Position numbers and translations under genes: made by a program. This document shows, piece by piece, positions 4,617-33,491 of a stretch of DNA of 33,909 bases. The stretch is from Rhodospirillales bacterium (GTDB lineage: Bacteria > Pseudomonadota > Alphaproteobacteria > ATCC43930 > CGMCC-115725), in contig DAHUYF010000020.1 in NCBI GenBank assembly GCA_027315365.1, positions 1-33,909 of the forward strand. Direction: 5' to 3'. The notes under the pieces were generated by a model. It saw nothing but the letters and a program-made list of their open reading frames with translations. It had not been told where the DNA came from and made no database searches. Numbering within the stretch: position 1 is the stretch's first letter; every line of letters starts with the position of its first letter.

Positions 4617-5336
4617 CTATGCGTCGTTCCGGCCGCGAAACCCTTGCGCCACGACATAGACTTCCGCCGATTCGGTGCGGCTGGCCGGCGGCTTGGCATG
4701 GCGCAGGCCGGCGAAGTCGCGCTTCAGAGTCGCCAGCAGCTCGCCCTCGGCGCCGCCCTGGAAGACCTTGGCGATGAAGACGCCGCCCGGCGCCAGCACC
4801 TCGCGGGCGAAGGCGAAGGCGGCCTCGGCCAGGCCGACGACGCGCAGATGGTCGGTCGCGGCATGGCCGGTGCTGGGCGCCGCCATGTCGCTGAGCACGA
4901 TGTCGGCCGGGCCGCCCAGCGCCTCGCGCAGCGCCGCCGGCGCCGCCGGGTCGAGGAAATCGCCGCGCAGCAGCACCGCACCGGGGATCGGATCGACCGC
5001 CAGCAGGTCGATGCCGACGACGCGGCCCCTGCCCGCCGCCGCGCGGACGCGCTCGACCGCCACCTGCGTCCAGCCGCCCGGTGCCGCGCCGAGGTCGACC
5101 ACCCTGAGGCCGGGCTTCAGGAAGCGGAAGCGGTCGTCGAGCTCGATCAGCTTGAAGGCGGCGCGCGAGCGGTAGCCCAGGCGTTTCGCCTCGCTGACAT
5201 AGGGGTCGTTGAGCTGGCGCTCGAGCCATTGCGTCGAGGAGGCGCTGCGCCGGGCGGCGGTCTTGACCCGCACCGCCGGCCGCCGCGAGGTGGAAGGCGC
5301 GCCGCCGCCGCGCCGCCGCGCGCCGCGCCTGGTCAC
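4617..5336 (-). CDS. rlmE: 23S rRNA (uridine-2'-O)-methyltransferase RlmE (FtsJ/RrmJ)
   Basis: Methylates the 2'-O of a uridine in the 23S rRNA A-loop (U2552 in E. coli) during late 50S assembly. From the GTG start it has 239 aa. The K-D-K-E catalytic tetrad is visible in [31 protein letters not shown] and [11 protein letters not shown]. The SAM site is [15 protein letters not shown]. The start is placed at GTG 5336 because it overlaps the gppA stop as GTGA, giving translational coupling, and because an ATG at 5417 would add 27 unrelated Arg-rich residues inside gppA. The basic N-terminus ([11 protein letters not shown]) could contact RNA. Confidence 0.95.
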
Positions 5337-6379
5337 GACGCGCCGTCGCCGATCAGGCCGAGCAGGATGCCTTCCCGGATGCCGCGATCGGCGACGCGCA
5401 GCCGGCCCACCGGCCACAGCCGGCAGATCGCCTCGAGAATGGCGCAGCCGGCCAACACGAGATCGGCGCGCTCGCTGCCGATGCAGGGATGGGCGGCGCG
5501 CGCCGCGTAGCCGAGCGCGGCCAGCCGTGCCGAGACCCGGCGCACCTGCTCGAAGGTCAGCGCGCTGCCGTCGACCTGCGACCGGTTGTAGCGCGGCAGG
5601 TCGAGATGGATGCCGGCGAGCGTGGTCACCGTCCCCGACGAGCCCAGCATCTGCAGCTCGCCGCGGGCGATGCGCGCGCCCAGCCCGGGGCGCTCGGCGA
5701 AGGGCCGGAACGCGTCCAGCATCTCCGCGACCATGGCGTCATAGGTCGCGCGCGACACCTCCCGGCCGCCATAGCGGTCGGCAAGCGTGACCACGCCGTG
5801 CGGCAGCGACAGCAAATCCTCGACCAGCGGCGGCAGGCGGTCGTCGCACGGCACCTTGATCGAGACCACCTCGGTCGAGCCGCCGCCGATATCGAAGGCC
5901 ATGGCATGCGCCACCCGCCGGTCGAGCAGCGGCGCGCAGCCGGCGACCATCAGCCGCGCCTCCTCGTCGCTGCCGATGATCTCGATGGCGAGCCCGGTCT
6001 CGGCCCGCACGCGCTCCAGGAACTCGGCGCAATTGGCGGCGCGGCGGCAGGCCTCGGTCGCGACATAGCGCGCCCGTGTCACCCGGCGCTGGGCGATCTT
6101 GCCGGCGCAGATGCGCAGCGCCTCGATGGTGCGCGCCATCGCCGCCGCGGACAGCACCCCGCTCGCCGCCAGCCCCTCGCCCAGCCGGACGATGCGCGAG
6201 AAGGCGTCGACGACGCGGAATCCCCGCCCCTCGGCGCGGGCCACCAGCAGGCGGCAATTATTGGTGCCGAGATCGAGCGCGGCATAGGTTGCGCCCTCGG
6301 CCGCCGCCCAGCCGGACGCCGCGGCGCCGCGGGCAAACGCGGGGGCGGGCGAGAGATCGGCGGGCGCGGGCTTGTCCAC
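5333..6379 (-). CDS. Ppx/GppA phosphatase (exopolyphosphatase / pppGpp phosphohydrolase)
   Basis: ASKHA-fold phosphatase that removes terminal phosphate from polyphosphate or pppGpp; the two activities cannot be separated by sequence. At 348 aa it is the short form common in alphaproteobacteria, lacking the C-terminal HD domain. Motifs are [14 protein letters not shown] (phosphate 1 loop, about residue 35), GSDEEARLM, and [12 protein letters not shown] (phosphate 2 loop). The start is taken as GTG at 6379 with no clear ribosome site, so a slightly later start is possible. It is translationally coupled to rlmE. A stringent-response enzyme beside guaB and guaA makes metabolic sense, since all act on guanine nucleotides. 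Confidence 0.9.
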
Positions 6380-6534
6380 GGGCGGGCGGGGCTCAATTCA
6401 CGACATATTCATGACACGGCTGCAATGCTATCCCAGGATGCCGCGGTTGCGAAGCGCGGTCTCGCCCGCGCCCGCCCTCTACCCAGGCCGGTCGGGGTAT
6501 GCTATCTAGCGACCAGGGCTCGGTTAATCCCTGT

Positions 6535-6608
6535 TGGGGGATCGTCTAACGGTAGGACAGCGGACTCTGACTCCGCCGGTCTAGGTTCGAATCCTAGTCC
6601 CCCAGCCA
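6535..6608 (+). tRNA. tRNA-Gln (anticodon CTG)
   Basis: A 74-nt cloverleaf can be folded by eye. The acceptor stem is TGGGGGA with TCCCCCA, the anticodon stem GCGGA/TCCGC encloses loop CTCTGAC with anticodon CTG, and the T-loop is GGTTCGAATCC. Discriminator G and CCA are encoded. The last 17 nt (6592-6608) are repeated at 14730-14746, so this gene is the integration site of the neighbouring element. Confidence 0.96.
6592..6608 (+). repeat. attL, 17-bp direct repeat inside tRNA-Gln
   Basis: TCCTAGTCCCCCAGCCA, the 3' end of tRNA-Gln, identical to 14730-14746. Bases on both sides differ (A versus G upstream, A versus G downstream), so the shared core is exactly 17 bp. Confidence 0.88.
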
Positions 6609-6660
6609 AACCCCAGCCCATCCCGCAGAAAACCTCGCGCGTGCCGGGCTCCGTCCCCGG

Positions 6661-6686
6661 CCTGTGGCACATGATCGTGACACAGG
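6661..6686. promoter_or_regulatory. Dyad upstream of the integrase gene
   Basis: Arms CCTGTGGCAC (6661-6670) and GTGACACAGG (6677-6686) pair with one mismatch around a 6-bp spacer, ending 16 bp before the integrase start. The position suits an operator or an excisionase/integrase binding site; the role is inferred. Confidence 0.4.
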
Positions 6687-6702
6687 CCCGACCGGAGCGG
6701 GC

Positions 6703-8541
6703 ATGTCCACGGGCCATTTACATCTCTTCAAGCGCGCCGGCCGATACTGGTGGCGACGACGCCTTCCCGCCCCGCTGAGCGCCGCGCTCGGCATCGCGCA
6801 GGTGCGACGATCTCTTCGCACCGCCGAGCCCGCGATCGCGCGCCGGCGCGCGCGGCGGGCGAGCGTCGCCTTCGATGGCTGGCTGGCGATGGTGGAGAAG
6901 AACATGGCGGAAGGACGCGGCGCGCCGACGCAGGACGAGCTGAAACGGGTTCTCGACGACCTCTTCGAGAAGGTGCTGGCCGATGGCGAACTGGCGCGCG
7001 CCATGCGGCCGCCGGGGCCGCCGGAGTGGATCGTCGAAGGGCCGGACGATCCCGACGATCCCGAGCAGATGGCGGAGGCGGCGGCGCGCGCGGCGGAGGC
7101 CGCGCCTTCGGCTCAAATCCCGAAGCTGCGCGACGATCTCTTCCTCAACGATTGCTCGGCCGTGATGCCGGACCTCGACGCGGTGCTCGCCGCTCGCGGG
7201 TTCGCCGATCTCGACCGATCCTCGCCGCAGTTTCGTGTCTTCCTCCGCGAGGCCATGCGCGTCTACATCCAGGCGCGCGAGGCGGACGCCGAACGCGAGG
7301 AGCGCGCAGTCTACATCGAGGATCAGCGCGACCGTCGCGCCCTGCCCGTGCCGCTCACCACCTTGCCAGCGATCCCCACATCGCCGGCACCGACGCCCAG
7401 CACATCGCCGCTGCCCGCACTGGCGGTCGCTACTGAATTGGCGCAAGCCGGCGCGCCGCGGCGCGCCGGCCCTGTTCCTCGCCTCGTAGACGAGTTCGAG
7501 GCATGGCGCGACGCCATGGCGGGAAACGCCTGGGGCGACAAGCACGCGCGCGACAGCGCGGCCGCGTTGAAGCTGTGGCGCGAGCTGATGGGAGAGCAAT
7601 TCCGCCTCGACGAGGTATCGAAGCGGCAGGCCTGGCAATTCCGAAAGGAGCTTGGCCGGATGCCGAAGCTCCACGGAAAAAGCGTATTCACCGGCTTGAA
7701 CGCGCGCAATGCCATCGCGCGAGCCGACGCCATCGAGCGCGGCGAGTTCGATCCGGCCGAGATTTCCAACGTGCTGCGCAAGGACGAAGCCGTGGCGCGG
7801 CTCTCCAAGAAGACGCAGAACAAGCATCTCGACTTTTTCATCGGCTTCTACAACTGGCAGGCCATCGCCGACTACAAGCTCGAAAACCCATTCACCGGCA
7901 CGCTGCACAAGAAGCGCGAGATACGGCGCGACGCTGTCGAGACGCGGACGGCCCTCGACGACGAATTCCAAATCCGGCTGTTCTCGTCGCCGGTCTGGCG
8001 CGGCTCTGTCTCCGCCTACTACCGGGCCAAGCCGCGCCCGATCGAAAAGGGCGGCGTCATCATCCGCGACGCCCTCTTCTGGCTGCCGCTGCTCGCCGCA
8101 TTCCAAGGGCTCCGACTTACCGAGGCCCTACAGCTCTTCGTCGATGACGTGGTGCCGGCGCACGGCACGCAGTGGATTTGCGTCCGCCGTGGTCGCGGTC
8201 GCCGCGTCAAGACCGAGGCGGGCCTGCGCGAGATTCCCGTTCATCCCGAAGTCCGCCGGATCGGGTTCATCGACTACGTCGAGCAGCAGCGCGCCGCAGG
8301 ACAGCTTCGCCTCTTCCCCGACTACGCGCCGGACCCGGACCAACACGCAGACGCCGACCGCTTCTCAAAGAACTTCGGCTACTATCGCCGCGCAATCGAC
8401 TGCGGCGATCTGTGGAAGGATTTCCACGCGGAGCGGCATACCGTTGACACTGTCTTAATCCGCGCCGGCGTGCGCTCGCGCCTCGTCGCGAGCATCTGCG
8501 GACACATGGCGGCCATCTCGAAGCGCGACCGCTCGCCATGA
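6703..8541 (+). CDS. Tyrosine site-specific integrase, frameshifted before its catalytic Tyr
   Basis: Phage-type integrase expected to recombine attP with the tRNA-Gln 3' end. The open frame has 612 aa. An N-terminal DUF6538-like region (LFKRAGRYWWRRRLP) is followed by a Pro/Thr-rich linker near residue 220, a SAM-like core-binding region, then the catalytic domain. Visible catalytic residues are Arg471 in GLRLTEALQL, a Lys in KTEAGLREIPVHPE, His575 and Arg578 in FHAERHT, and His601 in ICGH. After His601 the frame ends MAAISKRDRSP, and the tyrosine segment lies in the -1 frame downstream. The ATG at 6703 has GGAG 6 bp upstream; a GTG at 6664 is less likely. Family assignment is secure; activity is doubtful. 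Confidence 0.88.
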   Translation: MSTGHLHLFKRAGRYWWRRRLPAPLSAALGIAQVRRSLRTAEPAIARRRARRASVAFDGWLAMVEKNMAEGRGAPTQDELKRVLDDLFEKVLADGELARAMRPPGPPEWIVEGPDDPDDPEQMAEAAARAAEAAPSAQIPKLRDDLFLNDCSAVMPDLDAVLAARGFADLDRSSPQFRVFLREAMRVYIQAREADAEREERAVYIEDQRDRRALPVPLTTLPAIPTSPAPTPSTSPLPALAVATELAQAGAPRRAGPVPRLVDEFEAWRDAMAGNAWGDKHARDSAAALKLWRELMGEQFRLDEVSKRQAWQFRKELGRMPKLHGKSVFTGLNARNAIARADAIERGEFDPAEISNVLRKDEAVARLSKKTQNKHLDFFIGFYNWQAIADYKLENPFTGTLHKKREIRRDAVETRTALDDEFQIRLFSSPVWRGSVSAYYRAKPRPIEKGGVIIRDALFWLPLLAAFQGLRLTEALQLFVDDVVPAHGTQWICVRRGRGRRVKTEAGLREIPVHPEVRRIGFIDYVEQQRAAGQLRLFPDYAPDPDQHADADRFSKNFGYYRRAIDCGDLWKDFHAERHTVDTVLIRAGVRSRLVASICGHMAAISKRDRSP

Positions 8542-8675
8542 CGAACAGGCTGTATTTCGGGGGCTACAAGCCCGCGGCCCTCATCGGCGCCATCAACTGC
8601 ATCGCGTATCCCGGGCTCAATCTGTCTCATCTCTACACCGACGCCGCGCGCGTCAGCCTTGCGGCGGCTGAGTAG
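8508..8675 (+). pseudogene. Detached C-terminal segment of the integrase with the catalytic tyrosine
   Basis: In the -1 frame relative to the integrase, codons from 8508 read GGHLEARPLAMTNRLYFGGY and continue in a typical integrase end (KPAALIGAI, then LNLSHLYTDAAR) to TAG at 8673-8675. It joins naturally to the upstream ICGH box if one base was lost at about 8505-8507, which would give a 657-aa enzyme. An ATG at 8538 overlaps the upstream stop as ATGA and could allow reinitiation of a 45-aa peptide. A programmed -1 shift cannot be excluded, but no convincing slippery heptamer is visible. Confidence 0.72.
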
Positions 8676-8691
8676 CCCGCTGAAGCTGCGT

Positions 8692-9135
8692 CTACGCGCG
8701 CACCTGGCGCAAAGCTCGGGCCACCTCTTCGGATACGCCGAGCGCATCGCGGATACGCTCGACCGGCGCCCCATAAAGCTTCTCGACGAAGAGGCGCTTG
8801 ACGAGACCCTTGAACTCGCTGCTGCCCAGGTCGATCTCGACCCGCTTCGCGGCGCCTTGGGGGATGCCGAGCCGGGCGCCGTCCGCGGCTCGCTGTGCGG
8901 CGGACTTCTCGAGCCGCGCGACGCGCCGCTCGAGGTCTTGAACGCGTTTCGCCAAATCGCCGGAGCCTTTCGCCGACCCGCGGACGCCGGCATCAACCTT
9001 GGCTTGGACGGCCGCTGACACCCACGCGCCGAGCTTCATTCCGGCGCGGTCCGCCGCCGCCTTCGCCCGACGCTGCAAATCCGGGGCAACGTCCCTCACC
9101 GTCCATCGCCCGCCGCTGCCGCTCGCTCTCGCCAC
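8692..9135 (-). CDS. Small ribbon-helix-helix-like protein with coiled coil
   Basis: 147 aa from GTG at 9135, chosen because AGGGGG lies 6 bp upstream; an ATG at 9240 would add 35 unlikely residues across a palindrome. The N-terminal WTVRDVAPDLQRRAKAAADR followed by AGMKLGAWVSAAV matches the strand-helix-helix pattern of small plasmid RHH proteins. Heptad-like DLAKRVQDLERRVARLEK follows at about 60-77. The tail FKGLVKRLFVEKLYGAPVER ends with a short helical stretch (LGVSEEVARALR). Likely a DNA-binding regulator or partition-like protein of the element. It converges with the integrase and diverges from the PAS gene, so it could act at the shared upstream region. Confidence 0.7.
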   Translation of the reverse strand: MARASGSGGRWTVRDVAPDLQRRAKAAADRAGMKLGAWVSAAVQAKVDAGVRGSAKGSGDLAKRVQDLERRVARLEKSAAQRAADGARLGIPQGAAKRVEIDLGSSEFKGLVKRLFVEKLYGAPVERIRDALGVSEEVARALRQVRA

Positions 9136-9173
9136 CTTCGCCCCCTGGTTGACGCAGCCTATCACGGGCGGCT

Positions 9174-9197
9174 CATGTCTGCCAATTGGCTGACATG
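9174..9197. promoter_or_regulatory. 24-bp imperfect palindrome, operator-like copy 1
   Basis: CATGTC and GACATG flank the core GCCAATTGGC (9181-9190), with only two symmetric positions breaking the dyad. It sits between the divergent RHH-like gene and the PAS gene. A second copy with core GCCATATGGC lies just after the PAS gene at 10395-10415. This is a good candidate operator for an element-encoded regulator. Confidence 0.55.
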
Positions 9198-9301
9198 CGG
9201 TTGGCGCGCCGAGCCGGCCTTCGGGTGTGGTCCCGGCCACTTTGTTAATTGCATCTCAACCAGTGCGCGAGTAGCATTCTCGCCTCTGCGGGGGAACCAG
9301 C

Positions 9302-10351
9302 ATGACCATCGAACTTGGTGTTTCCGCGCGACTGCTCGCCCCGGCGGAAGCGGACGCCCTTAGCGTTCGCTTCATCGACTATTGGCATCGCCTTACCCAA
9401 GGGCATCGGGCTCCGTCGCGACGCGATGTAGACCCGCTCGATTTGCGGCCGTGGATCGGCCGCATCCATCTTTGGGAACGGCTCTACGACGGCGATTTCA
9501 GATGCCGCATCTGGCCGACACACACCACTGAAACCAGCGGCTCTATCCGGGAGGGCAGCCGTGCCAGCGCGATGTGGCCGATGCCATATGGAGCGACCGT
9601 CCTTGAGCACTATCAGAAGACCATGGAATGCAAGAATCCGACGGTCCATCGGGTGAAGTTCGCGTTCCAGGGAGAGAATTGGACATATGACCGGGTGGCG
9701 CTGCCTCTAGCACCATCCTCAGACACGCCGCCAATGCTCTTGAATTACACCGTGCTCGGCGACCGGCTTCCTTGGCAACGGTTGCAGGCGGCGCTCGACA
9801 AGGTCGCGGAAGGCAAGTGGGGACACGGGGCAGCCGTCAAGCACGTGTCTGCCGAATCGAGCCCCACCCACCGTGCCATGGAAGCGCTGTCGGGCGAACG
9901 TCGACTCGTGGAGCGTGTGCTTCGCCTCTGGCAGGAAATGGCGACAGGCCAGCGCTGGCCGACGATGGCGAACCTTGACCCGTGGATGGTAGGCGACGAC
10001 TGGGCTAACTGCGCGCTGGTGAGGTTAGGCGCGGACCTTTGGCAATCGAGCTTCATCTTCGTCGGGGATCGCCTCGCGCCCGCGCCCGATCAATCTCTAG
10101 ACGGGCTGCCGCTTTCGACCTGCCCTCGTAGCTCAGTGCTTGGCAGCCTATTGAAGAACCTCTGGCGACTTCGGGCGCATCCGCAGCCGCTGAGCGTCGA
10201 AGGGGCCGCCGAGCACATGGACAATCCAGTTCTCTATCGAGGCGTGTTGATGCCGTTGTCAGAGGACGGCGCGAGAATGGACACGGTCTTCGCTGCTGCC
10301 ACCTGCGGCGAGCAACGCATGGACGAGCGATCCGTGCAGACCGGTCCCTGA
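9302..10351 (+). CDS. Tandem PAS_5-like domain protein
   Basis: 349 aa. The first half has the PAS_5 (DUF1388-type) signature: about residues 24-60 read YWHRLTQGHRAPSRRDVDP and then WIGRIHLWER, followed by DGDFRCRIW. The second half repeats the pattern from residue 200 in diverged form: LWQEMATGQRWPTMANLDPW, then WANCALVRL. So there are two PAS_5-like modules with no kinase, GGDEF, HTH or other output domain, and no membrane segment. The ATG at 9302 follows GGGGGAA. PAS_5 proteins are common in Rhodospirillales, and their ligand is mostly unknown. Here the gene is cargo of the mobile element between two operator-like palindromes. Any sensing role is inference. Confidence 0.72.
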   Translation: MTIELGVSARLLAPAEADALSVRFIDYWHRLTQGHRAPSRRDVDPLDLRPWIGRIHLWERLYDGDFRCRIWPTHTTETSGSIREGSRASAMWPMPYGATVLEHYQKTMECKNPTVHRVKFAFQGENWTYDRVALPLAPSSDTPPMLLNYTVLGDRLPWQRLQAALDKVAEGKWGHGAAVKHVSAESSPTHRAMEALSGERRLVERVLRLWQEMATGQRWPTMANLDPWMVGDDWANCALVRLGADLWQSSFIFVGDRLAPAPDQSLDGLPLSTCPRSSVLGSLLKNLWRLRAHPQPLSVEGAAEHMDNPVLYRGVLMPLSEDGARMDTVFAAATCGEQRMDERSVQTGP

Positions 10352-10394
10352 TCTACGGTGAATGTGGATCGCCAATCGAGGACAGCCATCCGAC

Positions 10395-10415
10395 TGCCAT
10401 ATGGCTGACACGCGG
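10395..10415. promoter_or_regulatory. Operator-like copy 2 of the GCCAWWTGGC palindrome
   Basis: This 21-bp stretch, TGCCATATGGCTGACACGCGG, matches 9180-9200 at 18 of 21 positions; two changes swap the central AT bases and keep the dyad. It lies 44 bp past the PAS gene stop, before the convergent small gene of the mob operon. Confidence 0.5.
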
Positions 10416-10441
10416 CACGGCGAGCCAAGGCGGCGTCCCCC

Positions 10442-10831
10442 TCAAAGCCTTAGCGTGTCATCGTCCTCGACGAGCGGGCGGCTAGGCTCGGTTTCGCGCT
10501 CACGCTGACGCGACGAAGCGCAGCCTCCGCCGCCTGCCACCGAAAGGCAGCCGGAACCACGCCCGCAGCGGCGCGACATCATCAGCACGGCACCGACCGC
10601 GTGCTCGAATCCGAGCGCGCGCGCCTTCATGGCGAGCGGGCGGGTCCAGGGCGAATTCTCATCGCCCTTTTTTCTATATCCGGGCGGCACCGTCGGCAAA
10701 AACTGCGTCCGGTACCACCTGACGTATTGAGACCAGAGCCAGCAGAACCGCGCCGCCGCCTCCCGCCGGCCGTGGTTTTCGAAGGCGGCCACGGCCGCCT
10801 GGAACATGGCGCGATAGTCAGCGTCCGTCAT
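10442..10831 (-). CDS. Hypothetical protein downstream of the relaxase
   Basis: 129 aa, not recognised. The N-terminal half (DADYRAMFQAAVAAFENHGR, then an aromatic-rich stretch RFCWLWSQYVRWYRTQF) looks folded and helical. The C-terminal part is Gly/Arg-rich and probably disordered. It begins 9 bp after the relaxase stop on the same strand, so it is probably co-transcribed with mob. No membrane segment or known catalytic motif is seen. Confidence 0.6.
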   Translation of the reverse strand: MTDADYRAMFQAAVAAFENHGRREAAARFCWLWSQYVRWYRTQFLPTVPPGYRKKGDENSPWTRPLAMKARALGFEHAVGAVLMMSRRCGRGSGCLSVAGGGGCASSRQRERETEPSRPLVEDDDTLRL

Positions 10832-10840
10832 CGCATCACC

Positions 10841-11854
10841 TCATCGTTCGAGAACCCGGTCAGGCGCGCGTCGCGCGCGTCCGAGCATCATCGCAGCGCG
10901 CGCCGCCGCCGCCGCGCCGTCGACCCGCGCCGCGACGCGGGCGACGAAGGCCCATACCTCCGCCCAAGCCGGGGCGAGGCGGCGTCGCAGCGCATCCCGT
11001 TCCGGCGGCGGCATCGCCGGGGCGATCCGGAACGTCGGCCGCGAAACATCGCCGGTCGCGGCGAGCACCTGGCCCTCGGCGAAGGCCTCCACGCCGGCGC
11101 AGAGCGCCGCCGCGCGTTCCCGCTCGGCCGCCACCGCCGCGCGGTCCGCCGCAGCTTCCGCGCGGCCGCGCGCCGCATCGCCCAGGGTGAGCGCAGCGAG
11201 CGTCGCCGCGCGGCTCGCGGCTTCCGCCTCGCTCTTCATCGTCGAGTAGCGGCGCCGGATGTCCTCGTGTCGCGCGTTCGAGCCCTTGACGCCGCGTTCG
11301 AGCCCGAGCGGCGCCATCGCGGCAGCATAGGCGTCTTGCAGGCGGGAGAGTTTGGCCGCGCCGTCGAACCATCGGGCGGCGTTGAGCCTGATGCGCGGTC
11401 CGCGGCGCCGCGGCGAGTCATCGATCACCGAAAGGGTGGCGGCGATATGCGGGGTCGACTCGTCGAGATGTGCGACACAATTGGCGAGATTCCTGCCCGC
11501 CTCCGCACGCAGGAATGCGAGCGAAGCGTCGCGCCATGCCTCGAAACGCGCCGCGTCCCACGAGCCGGCCTCGTGCGCGCGACCTGGCCGGAAGAATTCG
11601 GGTGAGGCCGTCAACAAGACCTCCACTGCGAGCACCGCGCCCTTGCGCTGGCGGTCGGGATCGAGACCGGCGCCAAGCATGCGGCCGCGCACATCCGCCA
11701 CCACATCGCGAGAACCGACGAGCAGCTCGATGCCCCGTTCGGGATCCGCGTTCGCCGGCGCGTGCCCTGCAAGTCGCAGATTGTGGCCGCCATGTGTCCG
11801 CAGCTCTCCCCAGCTCTTCACCTTCGCGATGCGCAAGATGGCGAACGGTCCCAT
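10841..11854 (-). CDS. MobV-family relaxase (Mob_Pre, plasmid recombination/mobilization protein)
   Basis: Single-strand nicking enzyme expected to cut oriT and lead DNA transfer with a helper conjugation system. From ATG 11854, preceded by GGAGGA, it has 337 aa. Motif I is HNLRLAGHAPANADP at about 24-38, the H-x-x-R and Asn pattern of MobV proteins. The metal and active-site motif AHLDESTPHIAATLSVID has His129, Asp131, Glu132 and His136. Residues 170-337 are Ala/Arg-rich and probably coiled coil. A longer reading from 12088 crosses hairpins and is unlikely. The upstream 12066-12476 gene and the downstream 10442-10831 gene lie on the same strand. No type IV secretion or coupling-protein genes are present. 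Confidence 0.88.
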   Translation of the reverse strand: MGPFAILRIAKVKSWGELRTHGGHNLRLAGHAPANADPERGIELLVGSRDVVADVRGRMLGAGLDPDRQRKGAVLAVEVLLTASPEFFRPGRAHEAGSWDAARFEAWRDASLAFLRAEAGRNLANCVAHLDESTPHIAATLSVIDDSPRRRGPRIRLNAARWFDGAAKLSRLQDAYAAAMAPLGLERGVKGSNARHEDIRRRYSTMKSEAEAASRAATLAALTLGDAARGRAEAAADRAAVAAERERAAALCAGVEAFAEGQVLAATGDVSRPTFRIAPAMPPPERDALRRRLAPAWAEVWAFVARVAARVDGAAAAARAAMMLGRARRAPDRVLER

Positions 11855-11956
11855 CCTGTCCTCCAGCACCGTGCGTCTGCGATATGGAAGCGCGGCACGA
11901 CCTCCGCAACTCGCGCCGGCGCCAGCGCCGTCAGGCGGTGGGGCCGTACCCACTAC

Positions 11957-12036
11957 GGAACAAGGGCGGCCAAGAGGCCGCCCTTGTTCCCGTGGGCGGG
12001 GCTCCGCCCTCAACCCGCTGCGGCGCGCTGCGCCGC
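11957..12036. other. Cluster of three hairpins upstream of the relaxase, candidate oriT
   Basis: A perfect 15-bp inverted repeat with a 4-nt loop (11957-11971 and 11976-11990) is followed by a 6-bp hairpin (11994-11999 and 12004-12009) and a 7-bp hairpin (12020-12026 and 12030-12036). They fill the space between the mob start (11854) and the upstream small gene (stop at 12066). In MobV systems oriT usually lies just upstream of mob. The first hairpin could instead be a terminator for the upstream gene. Confidence 0.5.
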
Positions 12037-12065
12037 GTCGGAGCGCCGGCCCCGACAACCCCGGG

Positions 12066-12476
12066 TCAGGACGTGGCCGCCCCCACACCCCCGCGCGCCG
12101 CCCGGCGCACGACCCACGCCCGCCAGCCGCCGGCGACGAGCACGCGGCGCAGCCGCGCCAGCTCGTCCGCCAGCGGGTCGCCTCCGGCCTGCGTGGGCCG
12201 GTCGATCACCTGCGCGACCGCCACAGGCGAGACCGTGCCGGCTCTCATCGCCGCCGCCAGCGCGCGCAGCGCGGCGCGCGCCTCCTCGGCATCCGGCGCG
12301 TCGATGTTCATCTGCCGCGTCCCGTCCGCCGCGCGGCGGTCGCAGTGCCGCGCCTTGCGGATCGCGTTCTTGCTCTGCTCCGTGCGGATGTACGCCTGCA
12401 CGCGTCTGAGCCCGGCGCGCGCCAGCGCCTCATCATCGGGTACGCCGTCGCCGCCGGGTGGAAGCGTCGTGTCCAT
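12066..12476 (-). CDS. Hypothetical protein upstream of the relaxase
   Basis: 136 aa, not recognised. It begins MDTTLPPGGDGVPDDEALAR and continues with a basic helical segment QAYIRTEQSKNAIRKARHCD, then an Ala-rich helix near DAEEARAALRALAAAMRAG. The ATG at 12476 follows GGAGAAAGGAAC, a good ribosome site. It could be a mobilization accessory or DNA-binding protein by position, since it precedes mob on the same strand, but no motif proves this. It is divergent from the rep-like gene across a 304-bp region rich in palindromes. Confidence 0.55.
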   Translation of the reverse strand: MDTTLPPGGDGVPDDEALARAGLRRVQAYIRTEQSKNAIRKARHCDRRAADGTRQMNIDAPDAEEARAALRALAAAMRAGTVSPVAVAQVIDRPTQAGGDPLADELARLRRVLVAGGWRAWVVRRAARGGVGAATS

Positions 12477-12780
12477 GTTCCTTTCTCCGTGCCTAGGGTT
12501 GTTCCTAGGAACGGATTTGGTTCCGAATTCGCCGAGATGCTCGGCGACGCCGCCAGGGGCCTCGATTTTTTCGAGCCTGTCCCCTCACCTACTTGCCCGG
12601 CGCAGCCGGGCACCGAACGGGCCGCGCCCGCCTTCCGGCGGGCGCTTGCCGGCGCCGGCGTAGAGATGAGCATGAAGCGGGATCGAGAAGCCCGAGTGTT
12701 TCCGCCTTTTTCCGGTTGGAACCCATATTGCCGGAGCTATCTCCCGATATGGGCGGCGATATGAATTCGGAGAACGTTGC
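12477..12780. promoter_or_regulatory. Divergent intergenic region with palindromes, possible origin/operator
   Basis: 304 bp without a gene. It holds a perfect 12-bp palindrome GTTCCTAGGAAC (12501-12512) next to a second CCTAGG (12492-12497), both just upstream of the minus-strand small gene. Near the rep-like start, an inverted pair CCCATAT/ATATGGG (12722-12728 and 12747-12753) is followed by another GATATG. Such repeats beside a rep-like gene could be operators or origin iterons. No clear set of tandem iterons is present. Confidence 0.4.
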
Positions 12781-13431
12781 GTGCTGCGGGATACGGATTG
12801 GGTGAACGCGAAGACCGGGGAAACCGGGCAGGCGTTCATGGTCATCAAGGGTAAGAAGTATCCGCGTGGCGTCGTCTTCATGACGATGTTCGCCCAGGGC
12901 TGGCGCGCGCTTGCCCAGTGGCGCGATGCCGAGGGGCGGAGACTGACCGCCACCGAGTGGACGGTCTTCGCCGGCCTGATGGGGCATCTCGGCTTCGAAA
13001 ACGTCATCCCGGTTTCCCAGGCGAAGCTCGCCAAGGAACTCGGCATCGCGCAACCGAACATCAGCCGGGCGGTGAAGCGGCTGGAACGAGCCGGTTTCGT
13101 TGCTTGCGAGAAGGACGAGAATGACCCGCGGCGCACGATCTACCGGCTGAGCCTCGACGTGGGATGGATGGGGGATGCTCCATCATGGCAGCATGCCATC
13201 CAGGGGCGCGGCAAGGCCGGGCGGACGCGGACGGCGGATGAGGACATCGATGCGTTTCTCGCGGAGCAGGGTTTCGCGGACGGCGCCGGGGATACCGACC
13301 CCAACGACCTCAAGGACTACGCCGGCAGAAACGCCGCGCCGCCGGAAGACGAGGGCGAACCGGCATCGCCCAGCGCGCCGTGCGATGAGGAAGAGGAAGG
13401 CGCTCGCCGCGCGGCAGGGGTGCGGGTCTGA
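12781..13431 (+). CDS. Winged-helix replication-initiator-like protein
   Basis: 216 aa from GTG 12781 with GGAG about 9 bp upstream. Residues 27-110 resemble a RepL-type or MarR-like winged helix: YPRGVVFMTMFAQGWRALAQ, a helix with LTATEWTVFAGLMGHLGFEN, then the helix-turn-helix SQAKLAKELGIAQPNISRAV and the wing. The C-terminal third is acidic, Pro-rich and probably disordered. Beside a MobV relaxase this suggests a plasmid replication protein kept in an integrated element, but a pure transcriptional regulator is also possible. Its stop lies in a perfect hairpin at 13415-13443. Confidence 0.65.
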   Translation: MLRDTDWVNAKTGETGQAFMVIKGKKYPRGVVFMTMFAQGWRALAQWRDAEGRRLTATEWTVFAGLMGHLGFENVIPVSQAKLAKELGIAQPNISRAVKRLERAGFVACEKDENDPRRTIYRLSLDVGWMGDAPSWQHAIQGRGKAGRTRTADEDIDAFLAEQGFADGAGDTDPNDLKDYAGRNAAPPEDEGEPASPSAPCDEEEEGARRAAGVRV

Positions 13432-13443
13432 CCCGCACCCCTG
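13415..13443. terminator. Perfect 13-bp hairpin overlapping the rep-like stop
   Basis: Arms 13415-13427 and 13431-13443 with a 3-nt loop. The TGA (13429-13431) lies at the tip. GC-rich stem, no T-run after it, so factor-independent termination is uncertain. Confidence 0.5.
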
Positions 13444-13571
13444 CAAGAGCGTGAGCGCTGCACGGCGTCAAGGCCGCTGCGCGCCGCCTGCGGCGGCCGG
13501 CCTGCGGCCGAACCTTGACCCCGCTCCGCTGATGGTTGAACTCGCCCCCAATGGCGTGCGACCATCAATCC

Positions 13572-14513
13572 ATGGCGTCGCGTCCCAACTCGTTTCGAAG
13601 CTTGCTCCACGCTGACTGGAGCAAACACGCAAAGAACCGCTGGGTAGCGAGGGCGGCACGGACGGACGCCGGTTGGCAAGTGGCACCCCCACGTCTAGTT
13701 GGCGACACGCGGGCCTTTGTGGACGAGTTGTTCATCACGGTTGATCCCGTGCTGGCTGGCTTCGATTTTCCAATCGGCGTGCCTGCCGCCTATGGGCAAC
13801 TAACCGGACTGCCGGATTTCTCAACCGCGCTGGAAGTCTTCGGAAGAGGCGAATGGGCCGAGTTCTTCGTCGTAGCTGAGACGCCCCAGCAAGTCTCACG
13901 TACAAGGCCATTCTACCCGCACGCGTCCAGGGCCGGGTCGAAGCAGTCGCATCTGCTGCACGGACTGGGGATCGAGAGCGTCGAAGCGCTGCGCCGCCAG
14001 TGTGAGCGTGCAACCCCGACCCGACGAGCCGCCTGTCAGTTGTTCTGGACACTGGGCCCCAACCAGGTCGGCAAGGCGGCGATTTCGGGCTGGCAAGAGG
14101 TGGTCGTGCCTGCCCGGCGGCGTGGCGCCCGCCTCTGGCCGTTTGACGGCACTCTGGCCGCGTTGGCAAGATCGGGCGTCCCCGTGCTGGCGGAGACCTA
14201 CCCTGCCGAAGCCTATGGGCACGTAGGAGTGGTATTCCGGGCGGGCACGAGTAAGAAATGCCAAAATGATCGTCGTGCCGCGATGACCGGCCTGTGTGAC
14301 TGGGCTCGCCAGCGAGGCATCACCTTCTCCGCAGAACTCGTTGCGCAGCTTGAGGACGGTTTCGGTGCCCGCGGCGGCGGTGACGACAAGTTCGACGCAC
14401 TCATCGGCGTGCTCGGCATGATCGAGGTGACCGATGGGCGTCGGATGGAGCGCCCTGCCGACCATAGCAGTGGGGCAGCCTGGGAGGGCTGGATTCTCGG
14501 GCAGGCGGCGTGA
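13572..14513 (+). CDS. DUF429-like protein with predicted RNase H-like nuclease fold
   Basis: 313 aa from ATG 13572; an ATG at 13551 is in frame, and neither has a clear ribosome site. The pattern matches DUF429 proteins: a first strand LLHADWSKHAKNRWVARA with Asp15, a second acidic site LAGFDFPIGVPAAYG with Asp65, the ETYPAEAYG strand, and a C-terminal GGGDDKFDALIGVLG motif with clustered Asp residues. These would form a metal centre as in RNase H-like nucleases, though no member's substrate is established to my knowledge. It is the last gene before attR, a usual place for cargo. Base composition is somewhat less GC-rich than the rest of the element. Confidence 0.7.
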   Translation: MASRPNSFRSLLHADWSKHAKNRWVARAARTDAGWQVAPPRLVGDTRAFVDELFITVDPVLAGFDFPIGVPAAYGQLTGLPDFSTALEVFGRGEWAEFFVVAETPQQVSRTRPFYPHASRAGSKQSHLLHGLGIESVEALRRQCERATPTRRAACQLFWTLGPNQVGKAAISGWQEVVVPARRRGARLWPFDGTLAALARSGVPVLAETYPAEAYGHVGVVFRAGTSKKCQNDRRAAMTGLCDWARQRGITFSAELVAQLEDGFGARGGGDDKFDALIGVLGMIEVTDGRRMERPADHSSGAAWEGWILGQAA

Positions 14514-15086
14514 GCGCCGCCCATTCTAATCGTTGTCGGCCGGCAGCCTCCTTGCCCCGGCGGGGTGGCCCCCACGCGCCCATTAGCTCCACGCGGCGCG
14601 TGGCTTGAACGTTGGGTGCCCGGAAATTCTTCCCACCGTGCCACCGCGACGTGGCACAATGCGCCCATCTGGAGCCTCGGCGCGAGGCTTTCCGCGGGGC
14701 CGGCCGCGGGTTTGGCGTTCGGGACTGGGTCCTAGTCCCCCAGCCAGCGCGCATGATCTGCCCAATCGGCCATCATGTCGCAGGACGAACGCAGCGAAAA
14801 CTCCAGCTTTTTCCCTCTGAGACGCGGCTGCCGGCGAGCCCTCCTCCCGCGGAGTTCAACCTCTTTTAACCTCTCCCATGCGACATATTTCGCGTTTGCC
14901 GGGTTGCCGCGTTGCGACGGAGCCGAGGTCATCGGCGCGCGCCGCGGAGCGGCGGAAAGGGCGACCGCCTCGGCCGCTCAACCTCTCCGCGCCGCGGGCG
15001 AGAGGCGCCTTGTTCGGCCGCCGGACGACCGCGGCCGCCGCGGTCTGCGTGCGCGATGTCGAGGCAATGGTGTGGGAGTTTCCGTC
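14514..15086. other. Non-coding stretch spanning the right end of the element
   Basis: 573 bp. The left part, inside the element, holds two small inverted repeats: CCACGC/GCGTGG (14589-14594 and 14598-14603) and GTGCCAC/GTGGCAC (14638-14644 and 14651-14657), possibly integrase arm sites. attR is at 14730-14746. The remainder to 15086 is chromosomal leader of the chemotaxis gene. An open frame through it (from 14775) has no protein-like features and is not annotated. Confidence 0.6.
14730..14746 (+). repeat. attR, 17-bp copy of the tRNA-Gln 3' end
   Basis: Identical to 6592-6608, with no tRNA body upstream, so it is the displaced end of the original target or of the incoming att site. Confidence 0.88.
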
Positions 15087-16823
15087 ATGAAGGGCCTCTT
15101 GTCCTACGCGCTGCGGGCGTCCGTCGGGCAGAAGTTCTTCATCGGCTGTCTCGGAACGCTCGCCGCGATCAGCCTGATGGCCGGCATCAGCCTCTCCACC
15201 TTCCGCGCGTCCGAGGCGCATCTCGAGGACGTCTCCCGAGCGAGCTCGGTCGCGCTGGTGCTCGCCGACGCGCTCTCCGCCGAGCGCGCGCTGGAGGCCG
15301 CGCTCCGCCAGGCCGCCGCGGCCGTCTCCCTGGACGAAGCGACGGCAGCGGCGGACCGGATCGCGGCGCGAACCGCCGAGGTCCGCCTGGACATCGAGAC
15401 CGCCGCGAAGCGGACCGCGCGCGCCGACCGCCACGCGGATCTGGAGTCGGTTCTCACCGGGTTCGACGCCGAAGCCGGGTTCGCCGCGTCCGTGGCGCGG
15501 TCCCATATCGCCCGGCTGAAGGCGGGGGACAAATCCGCGGCCAGCCTCGACGGCCTGGACAAGGCCCGGGCCCCCGTCCGCGACGGCCTCGTCGCCGAGA
15601 CCCGCAGCGTCAAGGCGGCGTCGGACGCCTTCGTCGCCGCCGGCGTCGCCGCGAACGCTTCGGGCGAGCGAACGCTCTGGATCGTCGTGGGCGCGATGGC
15701 CGCCCTGTTGGTGCCCGGCGTGTGGATCATGCTGCGGCTCATCACCGCACCGCTCAAAAAGATCGCGGACGTCGTCGACATGCTCGCGAAGGACAGGCTC
15801 GATGCCGTCGTCCCCTGCATCGACCACGTCGGCGAGATCGGTGCCGTTGCCCGCGGCCTCGAGGTCTTGCGCGTCGCCCTCGAGCATGCCGCCGGGCTGC
15901 GCGCGGCGCAGGAGGAGGAGCGCGCCCAGGCCGCGGCGGAGCGACGGGAAGCCATGTCCCGCCTGGCCGCCGGCTTCGAGTCCGGCGCCGGGCGCAGCGT
16001 CGACGCGGTGGCCGTCGCCGCATCCTCGCTGCTCACGCTCGCGGGCGACCTTGGCGCGGCCGCCGCCGGCGCGGAACGCGGTGCCGGATCCGCCGCCGGC
16101 GCGTCGGAGCGGGCGTCGGGCGCGGTCCAGTCGGTCGCAAGCGCGGCCGAGGAGCTTTCCTCCTCCATTGCGGAGATCAGTCGCCAGGCGCACGATTCCG
16201 CCAAGCGCGCCGAACAAGCGGCCGGCCGGGCCGAAACCTCGCGTCGCGAAGTCGGAGCGCTGGAGGCCGCTGCCGGCAAGATCCAGGAGGCGGTGAAACT
16301 CATCCAGGAAATCGCCAGCCAGACGCACCTCCTGGCGCTGAACGCGACGATCGAATCCGCGCGCGCCGGAGAGGCCGGCAAAGGGTTCGCCGTGGTCGCC
16401 AACGAGGTGAAGCATCTCGCCTCCCAGACCGCGACCGCGGCCGATGAGATCACCGCCAAGATCGACGAGGTCCAGGCGACGACCCAGGCGACCGTCACCG
16501 CCATCGGCGCCGTGCGCGCCTCCATCGAATCCCTGACCGAGACCGCATCCTCGATCGCGACATCGGTGGAGGAGCAAGGCGCCGCCACCACCGAGATCGC
16601 CCGCGCCTCGCAGGATGCGGCGACCGGAACCTCGGGGGCCACCGCCGCGGTCGCCGGCGTCTCCGAAGAGGCGAAGCGCGCCGGATCGCTCGCCGAGGCG
16701 GTCCGGAAGGCCGCATCGGATCTGGTCGCCCAGGCCGACGCGCTGAAGCGCGCCTCCGCCGAATTCGTCTCCGGCGTCCGCAGCGAGGGCCTGCCGCACG
16801 AGGTGAAGGCGGCCCGTCGCTGA
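15087..16823 (+). CDS. Methyl-accepting chemotaxis protein
   Basis: Inner-membrane chemoreceptor, 578 aa from ATG 15087 with GGGAG upstream. TM1 is at about 17-38 and TM2 at about 197-218, enclosing a helical periplasmic domain of about 155 residues with no recognisable ligand motif. A HAMP region follows at about 218-270, then the cytoplasmic signalling domain. The kinase/CheW tip is intact at about 408-445: [20 protein letters not shown] followed by [13 protein letters not shown]. No CheB/CheR-binding pentapeptide is seen at the C-terminus. No che genes are nearby, so it would feed a system elsewhere. Its leader begins at the element's right end, so insertion may have altered its upstream control. 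Confidence 0.93.
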
Positions 16824-17303
16824 TCGGCGCTCGCGCCGCGTCGGCGTCCACTCGCCGCCCGACGCCGTACGGCGGATTCCGCGCTGCCCCGCTCCATCTT
16901 CTCCGCCAGGGTGCGCTTGCCGACGGGTTCCGCCGGCAAGCGCACCCCGGGGATCCGGACGCGGCAAGCTCCAGATGTGACGCGAAGAATTCCCATGATG
17001 CCCGGCTTTCTGCCTCGGTTGTCCACGCCACGGGACGCCGGCGAACCCGGGGTGCAGCGTCCCGATTGCATGCAACAGGAAGCCCCCAACCCCACTCTCC
17101 GGCGATTTTGCGCGGAAAGGACGGAACCAAGCGTTGGTAAGCCGGCGGAAGGTCGGGCACCTCGCGCGAACGACAACCGAGGAGACGGTGAATGAGGGTG
17201 CGCCACGCTCATCGGGCCGGCGCCGATCGCCGCCGCCGGCCGGAGTCCGCGAATTGCGAGCCCCTCACGCTTCGCCGAAACTGCCTTATCGCGAGGAAAC
17301 CCG
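16824..17303. other. Non-coding stretch after the chemotaxis gene
   Basis: 480 bp. It contains a perfect 14-bp inverted repeat (16909-16922 and 16934-16947, 11-nt loop) about 85 bp past the chemotaxis stop, which may end transcription. A plus-strand open frame to 17195 ends in RANDNRGDGE, an ending seen on some small alphaproteobacterial proteins, but it has no ribosome site or other support. Confidence 0.5.
16909..16947. terminator. Hairpin downstream of the chemotaxis gene
   Basis: 14-bp perfect stem with an 11-nt loop, very GC-rich, no T-run. Position suggests a terminator. Confidence 0.45.
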
Positions 17304-17465
17304 ATGGAACAGGACGCCATGGCACAGGACTCCAAAGATCTTCGACGCAAGATCGCCCGCTATCGGCGGTCGCTGGCGGTCATGAACGATCCCGAGACGA
17401 TCAAGATGATCGAGCGGGTCATCAAAGAGACCACCGAGCGGATCGAAACCGTCGAAAGCCGCTAG
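17304..17465 (+). CDS. Small conserved-type basic protein (53 aa)
   Basis: ATG 17304 follows GAGGAAA at 6 bp, a strong ribosome site. The 53-residue product begins MEQDAMAQDSKDLRRKIARY and continues RRSLAVMNDPETIKMIERVI, ending with a charged helix TTERIETVESR. The R-x-x-I-A-R-Y-R-R segment followed by a charged helix resembles very small alphaproteobacterial proteins of unknown function. Probably one helical hairpin. It stands alone on the plus strand. Confidence 0.65.
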   Translation: MEQDAMAQDSKDLRRKIARYRRSLAVMNDPETIKMIERVIKETTERIETVESR

Positions 17466-17615
17466 GGGTCCGACGATCCGGATGGGCGTGACCCGGCGGG
17501 TCACGACGCGCAGCGAACGCCCGAGTTGGCGCGGTGTCATCGACCGGCTGCCACGCCATGGCAAGCCGGCACGGGGCCGTCCTCGTCCTTGCACCTTCTT
17601 CCGGCAGGAGACGCC

Positions 17616-17855
17616 ATGCGCTGCAGCATCGCCAAAAAGCGACCCTACATGAGCCTGTGGCTGAGCGCCGCCAACTCCACCCGCGGCGCCTGGACGGCGG
17701 ACATGAACCGACGGCAAACAGCGATGATGCACAAGACGGCCGGGACGATGATCCGCTTCCGGACCGGCGTCTGGCCGCTTTCGCCCGGCCGAGATCGCGC
17801 GGCGAAGCATCGCCGCCGAGACGTCGCGGGAGGACCGGAGGTCAAGCGGCGGTGA
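17616..17855 (+). CDS. Small hypothetical protein coupled to the DUF2141 gene (79 aa)
   Basis: ATG 17616 has AGGAG 6 bp upstream. The product has a conserved-looking segment MSLWLSAANSTRGAWTADMN, then RRQTAMMHKTAGTMIRF, followed by a basic tail. If translation began at the in-frame ATG 17649 the protein would start at MSLWLSAAN. No signal peptide or known domain. The stop overlaps the GTG of the next gene as GTGA, so the two are probably co-translated. Confidence 0.6.
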   Translation: MRCSIAKKRPYMSLWLSAANSTRGAWTADMNRRQTAMMHKTAGTMIRFRTGVWPLSPGRDRAAKHRRRDVAGGPEVKRR

Positions 17856-18388
17856 TCAAAAAGCCCTTCGTCATCATCCTGCTCGCGCTTCTAACGGCGT
17901 TTCCGGCCGGGGCCGCCGAGCTGCGCGTGACCATTAACGGCGTACGCCCCGGCGGCGGCGAGCTGCTGATCGGGCTCTATGACAATTCGGCGGGATTCGT
18001 CGCCGCCATCGGCCGCGCGACGCAGAGCGGGCTCATGGCCGATAGCGGCCGTCTGGTCGGCGTATCGATCAGGGCAAAAGCCGGCACGCAAAGCACGATC
18101 TTCACGCAGCTGCCGCCGGGACGATACGCCGTCATCGTCGTCCATGACGAGAACGACGACGGCCGGCTCGGCACCAACGCCATAGGCGTGCCGACCGAGG
18201 GCTACGGCTTCAGCAATGACGCACGCGGGTTCCTTTCCGCCCCGTCCTTCGACGCCGCCGCCATGACGATTGGAAATGCCGATGTCAGCGGGGCTATCGA
18301 CCTGATCTATCCGCGAGAATCCTCGGAGGAAGACAGATCCGACTATCAGCGCTACATCAGCGCCGCGCCCGAGACGACCGGTCGATAA
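17852..18388 (+). CDS. DUF2141 secreted protein
   Basis: 178 aa from GTG 17852. A clear signal peptide (VIKKPFVIILLALLTAFPAG, cut after AGAA) sends it to the periplasm or beyond. The mature part is a small beta-rich DUF2141 domain: ELRVTINGVRPGGGELLIGL at the start, then PPGRYAVIVVHDENDDGRLG, and GVPTEGYGFSNDARG, the most conserved family motif. Function of the family is unknown. It is translationally coupled to the small gene upstream and is not linked to the cyo operon, which starts 1 kb later. Confidence 0.88.
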   Translation: MIKKPFVIILLALLTAFPAGAAELRVTINGVRPGGGELLIGLYDNSAGFVAAIGRATQSGLMADSGRLVGVSIRAKAGTQSTIFTQLPPGRYAVIVVHDENDDGRLGTNAIGVPTEGYGFSNDARGFLSAPSFDAAAMTIGNADVSGAIDLIYPRESSEEDRSDYQRYISAAPETTGR

Positions 18389-18467
18389 CGACGCAGAGCG
18401 CGGCGGAGAGAAAGCGCCGGCCTCTATGAGAGGCATCGCGCCCCGGCGCCCGAGGCCTTTGGCGCCT

Positions 18468-18683
18468 TCAACGTTTCCTCATCCAACGCGTGCGATTCAG
18501 CGAAACGCCCTCTTGCGCACGCTGCTTGTGGCCCTCGATCCACGCCTCGGCGGCCGCCGCGCTGGCAAAGCTGGTGACCGTGGTGGGGAGCATCTCGGGG
18601 ATCGCAATCTCGACCCCGAACGCCGTTTCGGCATGCGGGACGACGCGATACGTGGCATCGGCGTGGGGGTGTTTTTTTTCCAT
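18468..18683 (-). CDS. Small hypothetical protein (71 aa)
   Basis: Starts at ATG 18683 as MEKKHPHADATYRVVPHAET and continues AFGVEIAIPEMLPTTVTSFA, then AAAAEAWIEGHKQRAQ. The pattern of two short strands, then T-V-T-x-F and AEAWI, is like small alphaproteobacterial proteins of unknown function. The start codon is followed by a run of eight A (plus-strand T at 18672-18679), a possible slippage point. Convergent with the DUF2141 gene. Confidence 0.65.
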   Translation of the reverse strand: MEKKHPHADATYRVVPHAETAFGVEIAIPEMLPTTVTSFASAAAAEAWIEGHKQRAQEGVSLNRTRWMRKR

Positions 18684-18791
18684 GTCCTGACTATGGCACC
18701 TGCGAAAAATGGCCGCCACTCGCGCGGGACGCGAGCCGCAGACCTTGATCTGCAAACCGGACCACGACCGCCTCGCCGACCCGCACCGCCG

Positions 18792-18968
18792 CTATGCGAC
18801 GTAAAGGCCCTCGATCGCGGCAACGACGCGCAGCCACCAATCGGCCCTCTCCGTCCTGCCCTGGCGGCGCTGATTGCGCGCAGCACTCCGGGCAATCGCC
18901 AGGGCATCGGCGCCGTTCGCTTCGACCATCGATCGAACCAGCTCGGGAATTTCGCTGTCTGCCGCCAT
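18792..18968 (-). CDS. Small hypothetical helical protein (58 aa)
   Basis: MAADSEIPELVRSMVEANGA, then DALAIARSAARNQRRQGRTE, then RADWWLRVVAAIEGLYVA. Two helices ending in WWLRVVAAIEGL are typical of tiny alphaproteobacterial proteins of unknown role. The start is ATG 18968, with AGGA about 12 bp upstream. The open frame runs further upstream, but that extension lacks protein character. Same strand as 18468-18683. Confidence 0.62.
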   Translation of the reverse strand: MAADSEIPELVRSMVEANGADALAIARSAARNQRRQGRTERADWWLRVVAAIEGLYVA

Positions 18969-20372: not shown

Positions 20373-20373
20373 C

Positions 20374-33490: not shown

Positions 33491-33491
33491 G

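Follow-up and report, generated by a model that had tools for sequence, protein, structure and literature searches.

The 33,909-nt window analysed here is contig DAHUYF010000020.1 of a Rhodospirillales bacterium (GenBank assembly GCA_027315365.1), and it harbours an 8.1-kb unit that is very likely an integrative mobilizable element (IME) built on a RepL/MobV mini-plasmid and inserted at a tRNA-Gln(CTG) gene. This gene (6535-6608, plus strand) is the single tRNA gene in the window (ARAGORN; Rfam tRNA, 63.1 bits), and it was left intact as the integration target. Its 17 terminal bases, TCCTAGTCCCCCAGCCA, form the core of attL (6592-6608, plus strand) and are repeated exactly in the core of attR (14730-14746, plus strand). 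No further copy was found in the window at up to two mismatches. A first-pass annotation of this sequence had proposed the repeat as the boundary of an element. By base composition, the 27.3 kb to the right should contain 3.9e-6 same-strand matches of 17 bp by chance. Of 300 control 40-mers taken from the left flank, not one had an exact match reaching 17 bp (the best was 16 bp, in two of them). The repeats are 8.1 kb apart and flank a site-specific insertion that keeps the tRNA whole, as in an IME.

Eight open reading frames (ORFs) of the element were scanned with profiles. The integrase ORF, which begins 55 bp in from the left end, encodes 625 aa from a GTG (6664-8541, plus strand; ATG at 6703). 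It was assigned to the DUF6538 tyrosine integrases (55.1 bits, cut-off 27), while Phage_integrase stayed below its cut-off (23.3 bits vs. 27.1). It is accompanied by a MobV relaxase gene (10841-11854, minus strand) and by the gene of a RepL-like winged-helix protein, the putative replication initiator (12781-13431, plus strand). None of the eight ORFs matched type IV secretion system (T4SS) or coupling proteins, which is the arrangement of an IME. The integrase, the relaxase, the winged-helix replication-like protein and the lack of transfer channel genes had all been proposed in the first-pass annotation, and all four were borne out. The unit therefore appears to combine an integrase, a RepL replicon and a MobV/origin of transfer (oriT) module without a transfer channel.

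The integrase family has a habit of lying beside tRNA genes. Across 39 genomes belonging to the window's family, DUF6538 gave 17 matches over the cut-off, and a tRNA gene adjoins 12 of them: nine of the 15 loci that were fetched (ARAGORN; six Ser, and Phe, Leu and Glu), the window, contig C142 of the same genome, and contig C183 of another genome (G016), where the neighbour is a partial tRNA-Gln at the contig edge. In the Azospirillum megaplasmids pAB510a and AZO_p1, a DUF6538 integrase immediately follows tRNA-Gln(CTG). Our search of the literature on DUF6538 found nothing.

The winged-helix protein was compared by tblastn with 72,556 plasmids, and three records matched, all of them mini-plasmids of 2.5 to 3.9 kb. 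In Bartonella pKM19s (3.3 kb), the matching helix-turn-helix (HTH) protein stands beside annotated RepL and MobV; in Desulfosporosinus pDESACI.02 (3.9 kb), which carries a MobQ relaxase, it is annotated as RepL; in Oceanisphaera pD (2.5 kb), it is a hypothetical protein and the sole annotated gene besides mobV. The pKM19s and pDESACI.02 proteins match the RepL profile PF05732 (29.8 and 25.9 bits), whereas the pD and window proteins do not. The window protein is thus homologous to mini-plasmid proteins that either match PF05732 or are the sole presumptive Rep of their plasmid. Its closest homologue, which is 42% identical and belongs to the element of genome G363 described below, matched 168 plasmid records; among the 12 matches listed, plasmid sizes ranged from 1.46 to 4.4 kb, and three (1.46, 1.53 and 1.86 kb) are plasmids below 1.9 kb whose protein is annotated as RepL or replication protein. 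Because homologues reside on such mini-plasmids, initiation of replication is the simplest role, and the protein is best described as RepL-like and apparently related to mini-plasmid initiators.

The gene might instead encode a MarR-type regulator, leaving an integrase and relaxase island that has no replicon. The Pfam scores speak for this and against an initiator: the protein matches MarR at 37.9 bits, over the cut-off of 24.6, and PF05732 RepL did not match it at E≤0.1. A regulator would nevertheless sit badly with a plasmid search that returned mini-plasmids alone, in alignments that begin at residues 5-12 and so cover the stretch ahead of the HTH, and with the initiators of plasmids below 1.9 kb matched by the closest homologue. 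We regard the regulator as unlikely.

In 385 alphaproteobacterial genomes, a search with the RepL-like protein gave 26 genomes with E≤0.001, the window's included. The sole other strong match was G363 (3.4e-32), and the next best reached 7.8e-7. The RepL profile matched 16 of the same 385 genomes at E≤1e-4; outside the window and G363 these were weaker winged-helix matches. The match in G091 had no tRNA and no obvious relaxase at its locus and was set aside, as was one of those in G004. In the genome-wide searches, the candidates scored after a first look are limited in number for each genome, and absences in the RepL and MobV searches of the class are soft. A comparison with one phage collection gave no match for the RepL-like protein; scans of viral sequences with MobV or RepL found relatives solely on phage-like contigs, and viral contig L162 encodes a RepL-like winged-helix protein at 7989-8429. 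PADLOC returned weak CARF/Csa3/CasR-type matches for the RepL-like protein and none for the other seven element proteins. The predicted structure of the RepL-like protein was too poor to use (pLDDT 56).

The relaxase scored 61 bits against Pfam Mob_Pre (cut-off 25.5) and 99.5 against NCBIfam MobV, just below the cut-off of 100. The His and Arg of motif I (H25/R28, HxxR) and the HxDExxPH motif (HLDESTPH) are kept. At the final His position of HUH the window protein has Ala; in the five proteins aligned this residue is Ser in pKM19s, Val in pD and Thr in Paracoccus pAES1, and His solely in a phage-borne relative (L123). Few genomes of the class sample have MobV: Mob_Pre exceeded its cut-off in two of the 385 genomes (the window's, and one on a 39-kb contig), and the protein search found one, the window's own. 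MobV relatives also lie right downstream of tail-like genes (named by eye) in the IMG/VR viral contigs L123 (7974-9170) and L124 (7926-9254).

Upstream of mobV, 92 bp from its ATG at 11854, lies an oriT-like site (11946-11990, minus strand). It consists of a hairpin (11957-11990) with perfect 15-bp arms and a 4-nt loop, followed on the minus strand by TAGTGGGTAC (11946-11955); on the mobV strand it reads GGAACAAGGGCGGCC-TCTT-GGCCGCCCTTGTTCC, then GTAGTGGGTAC. As single-stranded DNA, the 81-nt stretch folds at -33.5 kcal/mol (z -6.9), a value equalled by none of 200 shuffles. The motif was initially sought with a version of the MobM site. The nick sites given for MobV relaxases are TAGTGTG/TTA for MobM and TAGTGCG/TTA for MobSag (PMC5090054, in its part on these sites). 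By analogy, 11946-11990 would be a MobV-type oriT, with a predicted nick at TAGTGGG/TAC. For the pattern TAGTGNGTAC, 0.01 occurrences were expected in the window and one was found; this pattern was picked after the site was seen. The sequence TAGTGNNTA was present on either strand in six of 12 regions upstream of mobV (0.54 expected from shuffles), and a looser pattern in seven of the 12 (0.59 expected). The core precedes mobV in pKM19s and pD and is on the other strand in pAES1; it was not found near mobV of a Klebsiella RepL/MobV plasmid. By sequence only, the element thus has its own canonical relaxase and oriT. The first-pass annotation had missed this site, as it had the probable integrase defect described below.

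An alphaproteobacterial genome of another family, G363, carries a 5.7-kb element at tRNA-Gln(CTG) (locus L120, 9347-15078). The locus contains rlmE, the tRNA gene (15062-15135), a 260-aa DUF6538 ORF, a PMT_2 protein, a 141-aa ORF, a MobA/MobL relaxase (156 bits) and a RepL-like gene. The last 17 bp of the tRNA are repeated exactly at 9347-9363, and the order integrase, cargo, relaxase, RepL, attR is common to both elements. They have the type of integrase, the target tRNA, the length of att and the order in common, and differ in relaxase family (MobQ in G363, MobV in the window). The window gene at 4617-5417, which we take to be rlmE, is 67% identical to that of G363; in the window, ppx lies between it and the tRNA, and the G363 stretch examined gave no match to ppx. 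This second element is the strongest comparative evidence that the window's unit is a putative IME built on a mini-plasmid. The proposal of the first-pass annotation that an integrase had captured a mobilizable plasmid gained support, since the rep-like gene is related to RepL-type initiators of mini-plasmids, plasmids with little besides a Rep gene and mobV exist, the oriT-like site precedes mobV and the G363 element is built alike.

The unit could also have arisen in two events, a small RepL/MobV plasmid having recombined into an earlier integrase island at tRNA-Gln, in which case the 8.1 kb was never one circle. Its G+C content is mosaic (0.741 in the mob region, 0.677 in the integrase, 0.628 in the PAS_5 gene, 0.661 in repL and the DUF429-like gene), and its cargo proteins have either no plasmid homologues or distant ones. 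That G363 has the same order, and a 17-bp repeat at this tRNA too, points instead to a recurrent modular unit, and we give the two-event history a small probability, slightly above that of the MarR-type regulator.

Several further results weigh against reading the unit as an IME. G+C content is poor evidence (0.679 in the element, 0.713 to the left, 0.722 to the right up to 17 kb and 0.676 on the remaining right side). Four of the six carriers of TAGTGNNTA (window, pKM19s, pD and pAES1) had suggested the oriT motif, and among the MobV records independent of its choice two of eight carry it (pCENA543d and pUHCC0039a, both on the opposite strand). No excisionase was recognised in the element. 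A VirB4-type T4SS ATPase (PF03135) and a coupling protein (PF02534) were not found in the window's own assembly, so a helper would need to come from elsewhere. A strict empty site at tRNA-Gln was not found among the relatives searched. Finally, the integrase frame stops 11 residues past the His of the GH motif, without a Tyr, its C-terminal end being GHMAAISKRDRSP-stop. In two Azospirillum relatives (L089, L090) and in the integrase on C142 of the same genome (L024), the GH-motif His is followed by Tyr at 10-11 residues. A canonical IME has a functional integrase of its own; the window's belongs to the DUF6538 family, yet the assembled frame lacks the Tyr after the GH motif.

The integrase is probably now broken, and the copy in the window is probably stranded because its frame lacks the catalytic Tyr; a sequencing error behind the break is possible. 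A 45-codon ORF (MTNRLYFGGY..., 8538-8676, plus strand) lies in the -1 frame and overlaps the integrase stop as ATGA. By eye it resembles a displaced Tyr segment; a profile from five relatives did not support this, with 406 of 2000 shuffles scoring equally. Because its profile score is not above the shuffles, taking this ORF for the missing part is a guess. Two other possibilities, a programmed frameshift and a split integrase, found no evidence in their favour.

C142 (1593-3617 of L024) encodes a second DUF6538 integrase of 674 aa, with Tyr present, beside tRNA-Gln(TTG). It is 32% identical to the window integrase, a cytosine-methylase-like ORF (named by eye) lies downstream, and the region is probably another island of the same genome.

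A broken integrase would also fit a decayed genomic island. The unit would then be an old insertion with a dead integrase, perhaps with further functions lost as well, kept only for its cargo (PAS_5, DUF429) and no longer movable. This alternative overlaps the IME interpretation and differs from it in holding the unit immobile; we consider it a real contender, somewhat short of even odds. Besides the premature stop in the window, it can draw on the G363 integrase, which is likewise an N-terminal part (the 260-aa ORF matches DUF6538 alone and its catalytic half was undetected), and on the lack of a T4SS ATPase and coupling protein in the assembly. Complete decay is harder to reconcile with the RepL and MobV frames and the oriT-like site, which are intact, and a related integrase might move the element in trans; the one on C142 would be a candidate.

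Site occupancy was analysed by comparing the left DNA (5333-6640) and the right DNA (14747-17000 and 14747-33909) with relatives. Of the 20 loci inspected (the first 3.5 kb were viewed for eight), the tRNA is present in 19, and 18 extend into downstream DNA (less than 150 bp in three). At the protein level (E≤1e-8), the downstream DNA of these 18 loci gave one match to the window, at 25% identity. In the congeners G001 and G003 the ppx-tRNA-Gln arrangement is kept (80-83% over the query and 84-86% when the longer locus is compared), and the G002 contig stops ahead of tRNA-Gln. To the right of the tRNA lie a serine-recombinase-like ORF in G003 and a regulator gene in G001 (both named by eye), unlike in the window, which has a chemoreceptor gene there. 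As ppx-tRNA is conserved and the right flank is not, the tRNA-Gln site varies between relatives. The comparison that the first-pass annotation had called for gave no strict empty site, and none of the relatives compared was found to share the window's right flank. The opposing pattern that it had named, the same genes fixed as core sequence in related strains, was not observed: neither the integrase nor DUF6538 was detected in the congeners G001-G003 (assemblies 78-82% complete). The results given for the MobV and RepL class searches do not include these three genomes. A genome contig collection searched with MobV and with the integrase gave no match, and megablast against plasmids found no homologue of the whole element, matching just 75-77 bp at the tRNA. 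In four relatives (L058, L064, L072 and L073) the contig breaks off at tRNA-Gln or no more than 150 bp from it, as would be expected if insertions at this site often disrupted assemblies.

The closest working model is IMESag-rpsI of Streptococcus agalactiae, described in the relevant parts of two papers (PMC5090054, PMC5704250) as a canonical IME whose relaxase is of the MOBV1 type and whose initiator is Rep_trans. The outlines are similar: IMESag-rpsI measures approximately 9 kb and, like the window element, combines a tyrosine integrase, an initiator, MobV and oriT without a transfer channel. It differs in its Firmicute host, its target (the 3' end of rpsI), its initiator and its three-repeat pMV158-type oriT with the nick TAGTGCG/TTA, whereas the window element is alphaproteobacterial, uses tRNA-Gln and has a DUF6538 integrase and a RepL-like initiator. 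Plasmid pPDL2 of Sphingobium fuliginis (PMC3516476) is, like the window element, alphaproteobacterial and mobilizable, with its own replicon, an integrase and an attP matching a tRNA 3' end. Its att is at tRNA-Ser, attP-attB recombination was demonstrated, and the sections concerned name it an integrative mobilizable element. Unlike the window element, it is a free plasmid of 37 kb with a repA replicon, a 328-aa integrase with CopG, and opd catabolic cargo; for its relaxase, those sections name no MobV and report a RepB with weak MOBF likeness.

The RepL/MobV mini-plasmids Bartonella pKM19s, Oceanisphaera pD, Paracoccus pAES1 and Klebsiella pWP3-S18-CRE-02_8 share the pair of Rep gene and mobV with the window; unlike it, they are free, measure 2.5-3.3 kb and have no annotated integrase. 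Paracoccus plasmids, pAES1 among them, are reported to carry HTH_36-type Rep proteins and MOBV2 relaxases, and pMOS6 a RepL-type minimal replicon (PMC3832669, in part). Compared with the window, the G363 element has a MobA/MobL (MOBQ) relaxase, PMT_2 cargo, 5.7 kb of length and an integrase lacking the catalytic half. SGI1 and BcenGI2, as treated in part of a 2017 review (PMC5704250), resemble the window element in their Tyr integrases, sites at tRNAs or gene ends and plasmid-type initiators (Rep_3 in theirs).

In its passages on the subject, the same review considered none of the proteobacterial IMEs then described to be canonical, that is, with their own canonical relaxase and no T4SS proteins, and named as IME initiators Rep_3, RepA/RepC, Rep_Trans, phage-type replisome organisers and DnaC. 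A 2024 review (PMC11389934) reports, in the part on this topic, a relaxase-bearing IME in an E. coli strain and that new IMEs turn up regularly. Mesorhizobium IMEs use traACD or carry virD4-like genes, according to the pertinent part of another source (PMC8627217). As far as titles and the opening lines of abstracts tell, our literature searches returned no alphaproteobacterial element of this build besides pPDL2. With pPDL2 (2012) and the E. coli IME of the 2024 review, the idea therefore has precedent.

The att repeats, the integrase family, the relaxase, the oriT-like site, the relatedness to RepL and the second like-built element are features of the sequences themselves; from them we infer excision, replication, nicking and transfer, as follows. 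A mini-plasmid with repL, mobV and oriT would have gained a tRNA-targeting DUF6538 integrase and cargo. Its attP would have recombined with tRNA-Gln(CTG) at the 3' end, an event that keeps the tRNA intact and places a 17-bp copy at the other end of the insertion. The integrase would cut out the circle, which RepL could replicate, so that persistence while excised might be possible. MobV would nick oriT (TAGTGGG/TAC by analogy), the strand would exit through the channel of a helper element, and the element would enter tRNA-Gln anew in the recipient.

Whether there is an alphaproteobacterial family of such plasmid-derived IMEs on tRNA-Gln, with a DUF6538 integrase, a RepL mini-replicon and an exchangeable relaxase (MobV in the window, MobQ in G363), alternating between free and chromosomal states, we judge to be evenly balanced. 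If so, mini-plasmids with their own relaxase and oriT and no transfer genes would supply a build that the 2017 review, in the passages cited, had not found in Proteobacteria, and RepL would be an initiator type outside those named there. In the IME interpretation, the window shows a mini-plasmid backbone of a 2-4-kb type (RepL, MobV and oriT) that has been given an integrase as well as a target tRNA. The G363 counterpart with its different relaxase makes plasmid-to-IME conversion and relaxase exchange directly testable via the predicted nick site.

At the end of repL there is an inverted repeat with 15-bp arms (13414-13444), terminator-like or origin-linked. It lies in a structured block straight after the gene (13401-13530), TCAAGG-(GC-rich)-CCTTGA, for which Rfam gave no family. 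A 133-bp copy of the block, 80% identical, is present in the same genome (C190, 7303-7435; L025), with another integrase-like ORF next to it. On the right side of the element, positions 18426-23084 hold a cytochrome-oxidase-like cluster (COX2, COX3), which had no match in the DNA that follows tRNA-Gln in the examined relatives.

The remaining ORFs encode small proteins and cargo. Proteins of 182 aa (8692-9240), 129 aa (10442-10831) and 136 aa (12066-12476), all on the minus strand, gave no Pfam match at E<10 and no plasmid homologue. The first is RHH-like by eye, a label from the first-pass annotation that the profiles did not support, and the third has a weak NCBIfam UrfF-like score (21.2 bits, cut-off 100). 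The PAS_5 (MopJ-like) cargo protein (9302-10351, plus strand) has no plasmid homologue and scored 39.6 bits in Pfam and 33.1 bits against NCBIfam MopJ (cut-off 200). It had been described as a tandem of PAS_5 domains and has one (residues 22-146): its C-terminal half was unmatched at E<10, and comparison of the two halves gave at best a 23-aa alignment (E 0.005). For the last cargo protein (13536-14513, plus strand), the predicted structure was too poor (pLDDT 34) and Pfam DUF429 did not match; the DUF429 name given to it earlier stands through homology, as the protein is 50.3% identical over 94% to a Microvirga plasmid protein annotated as DUF429.

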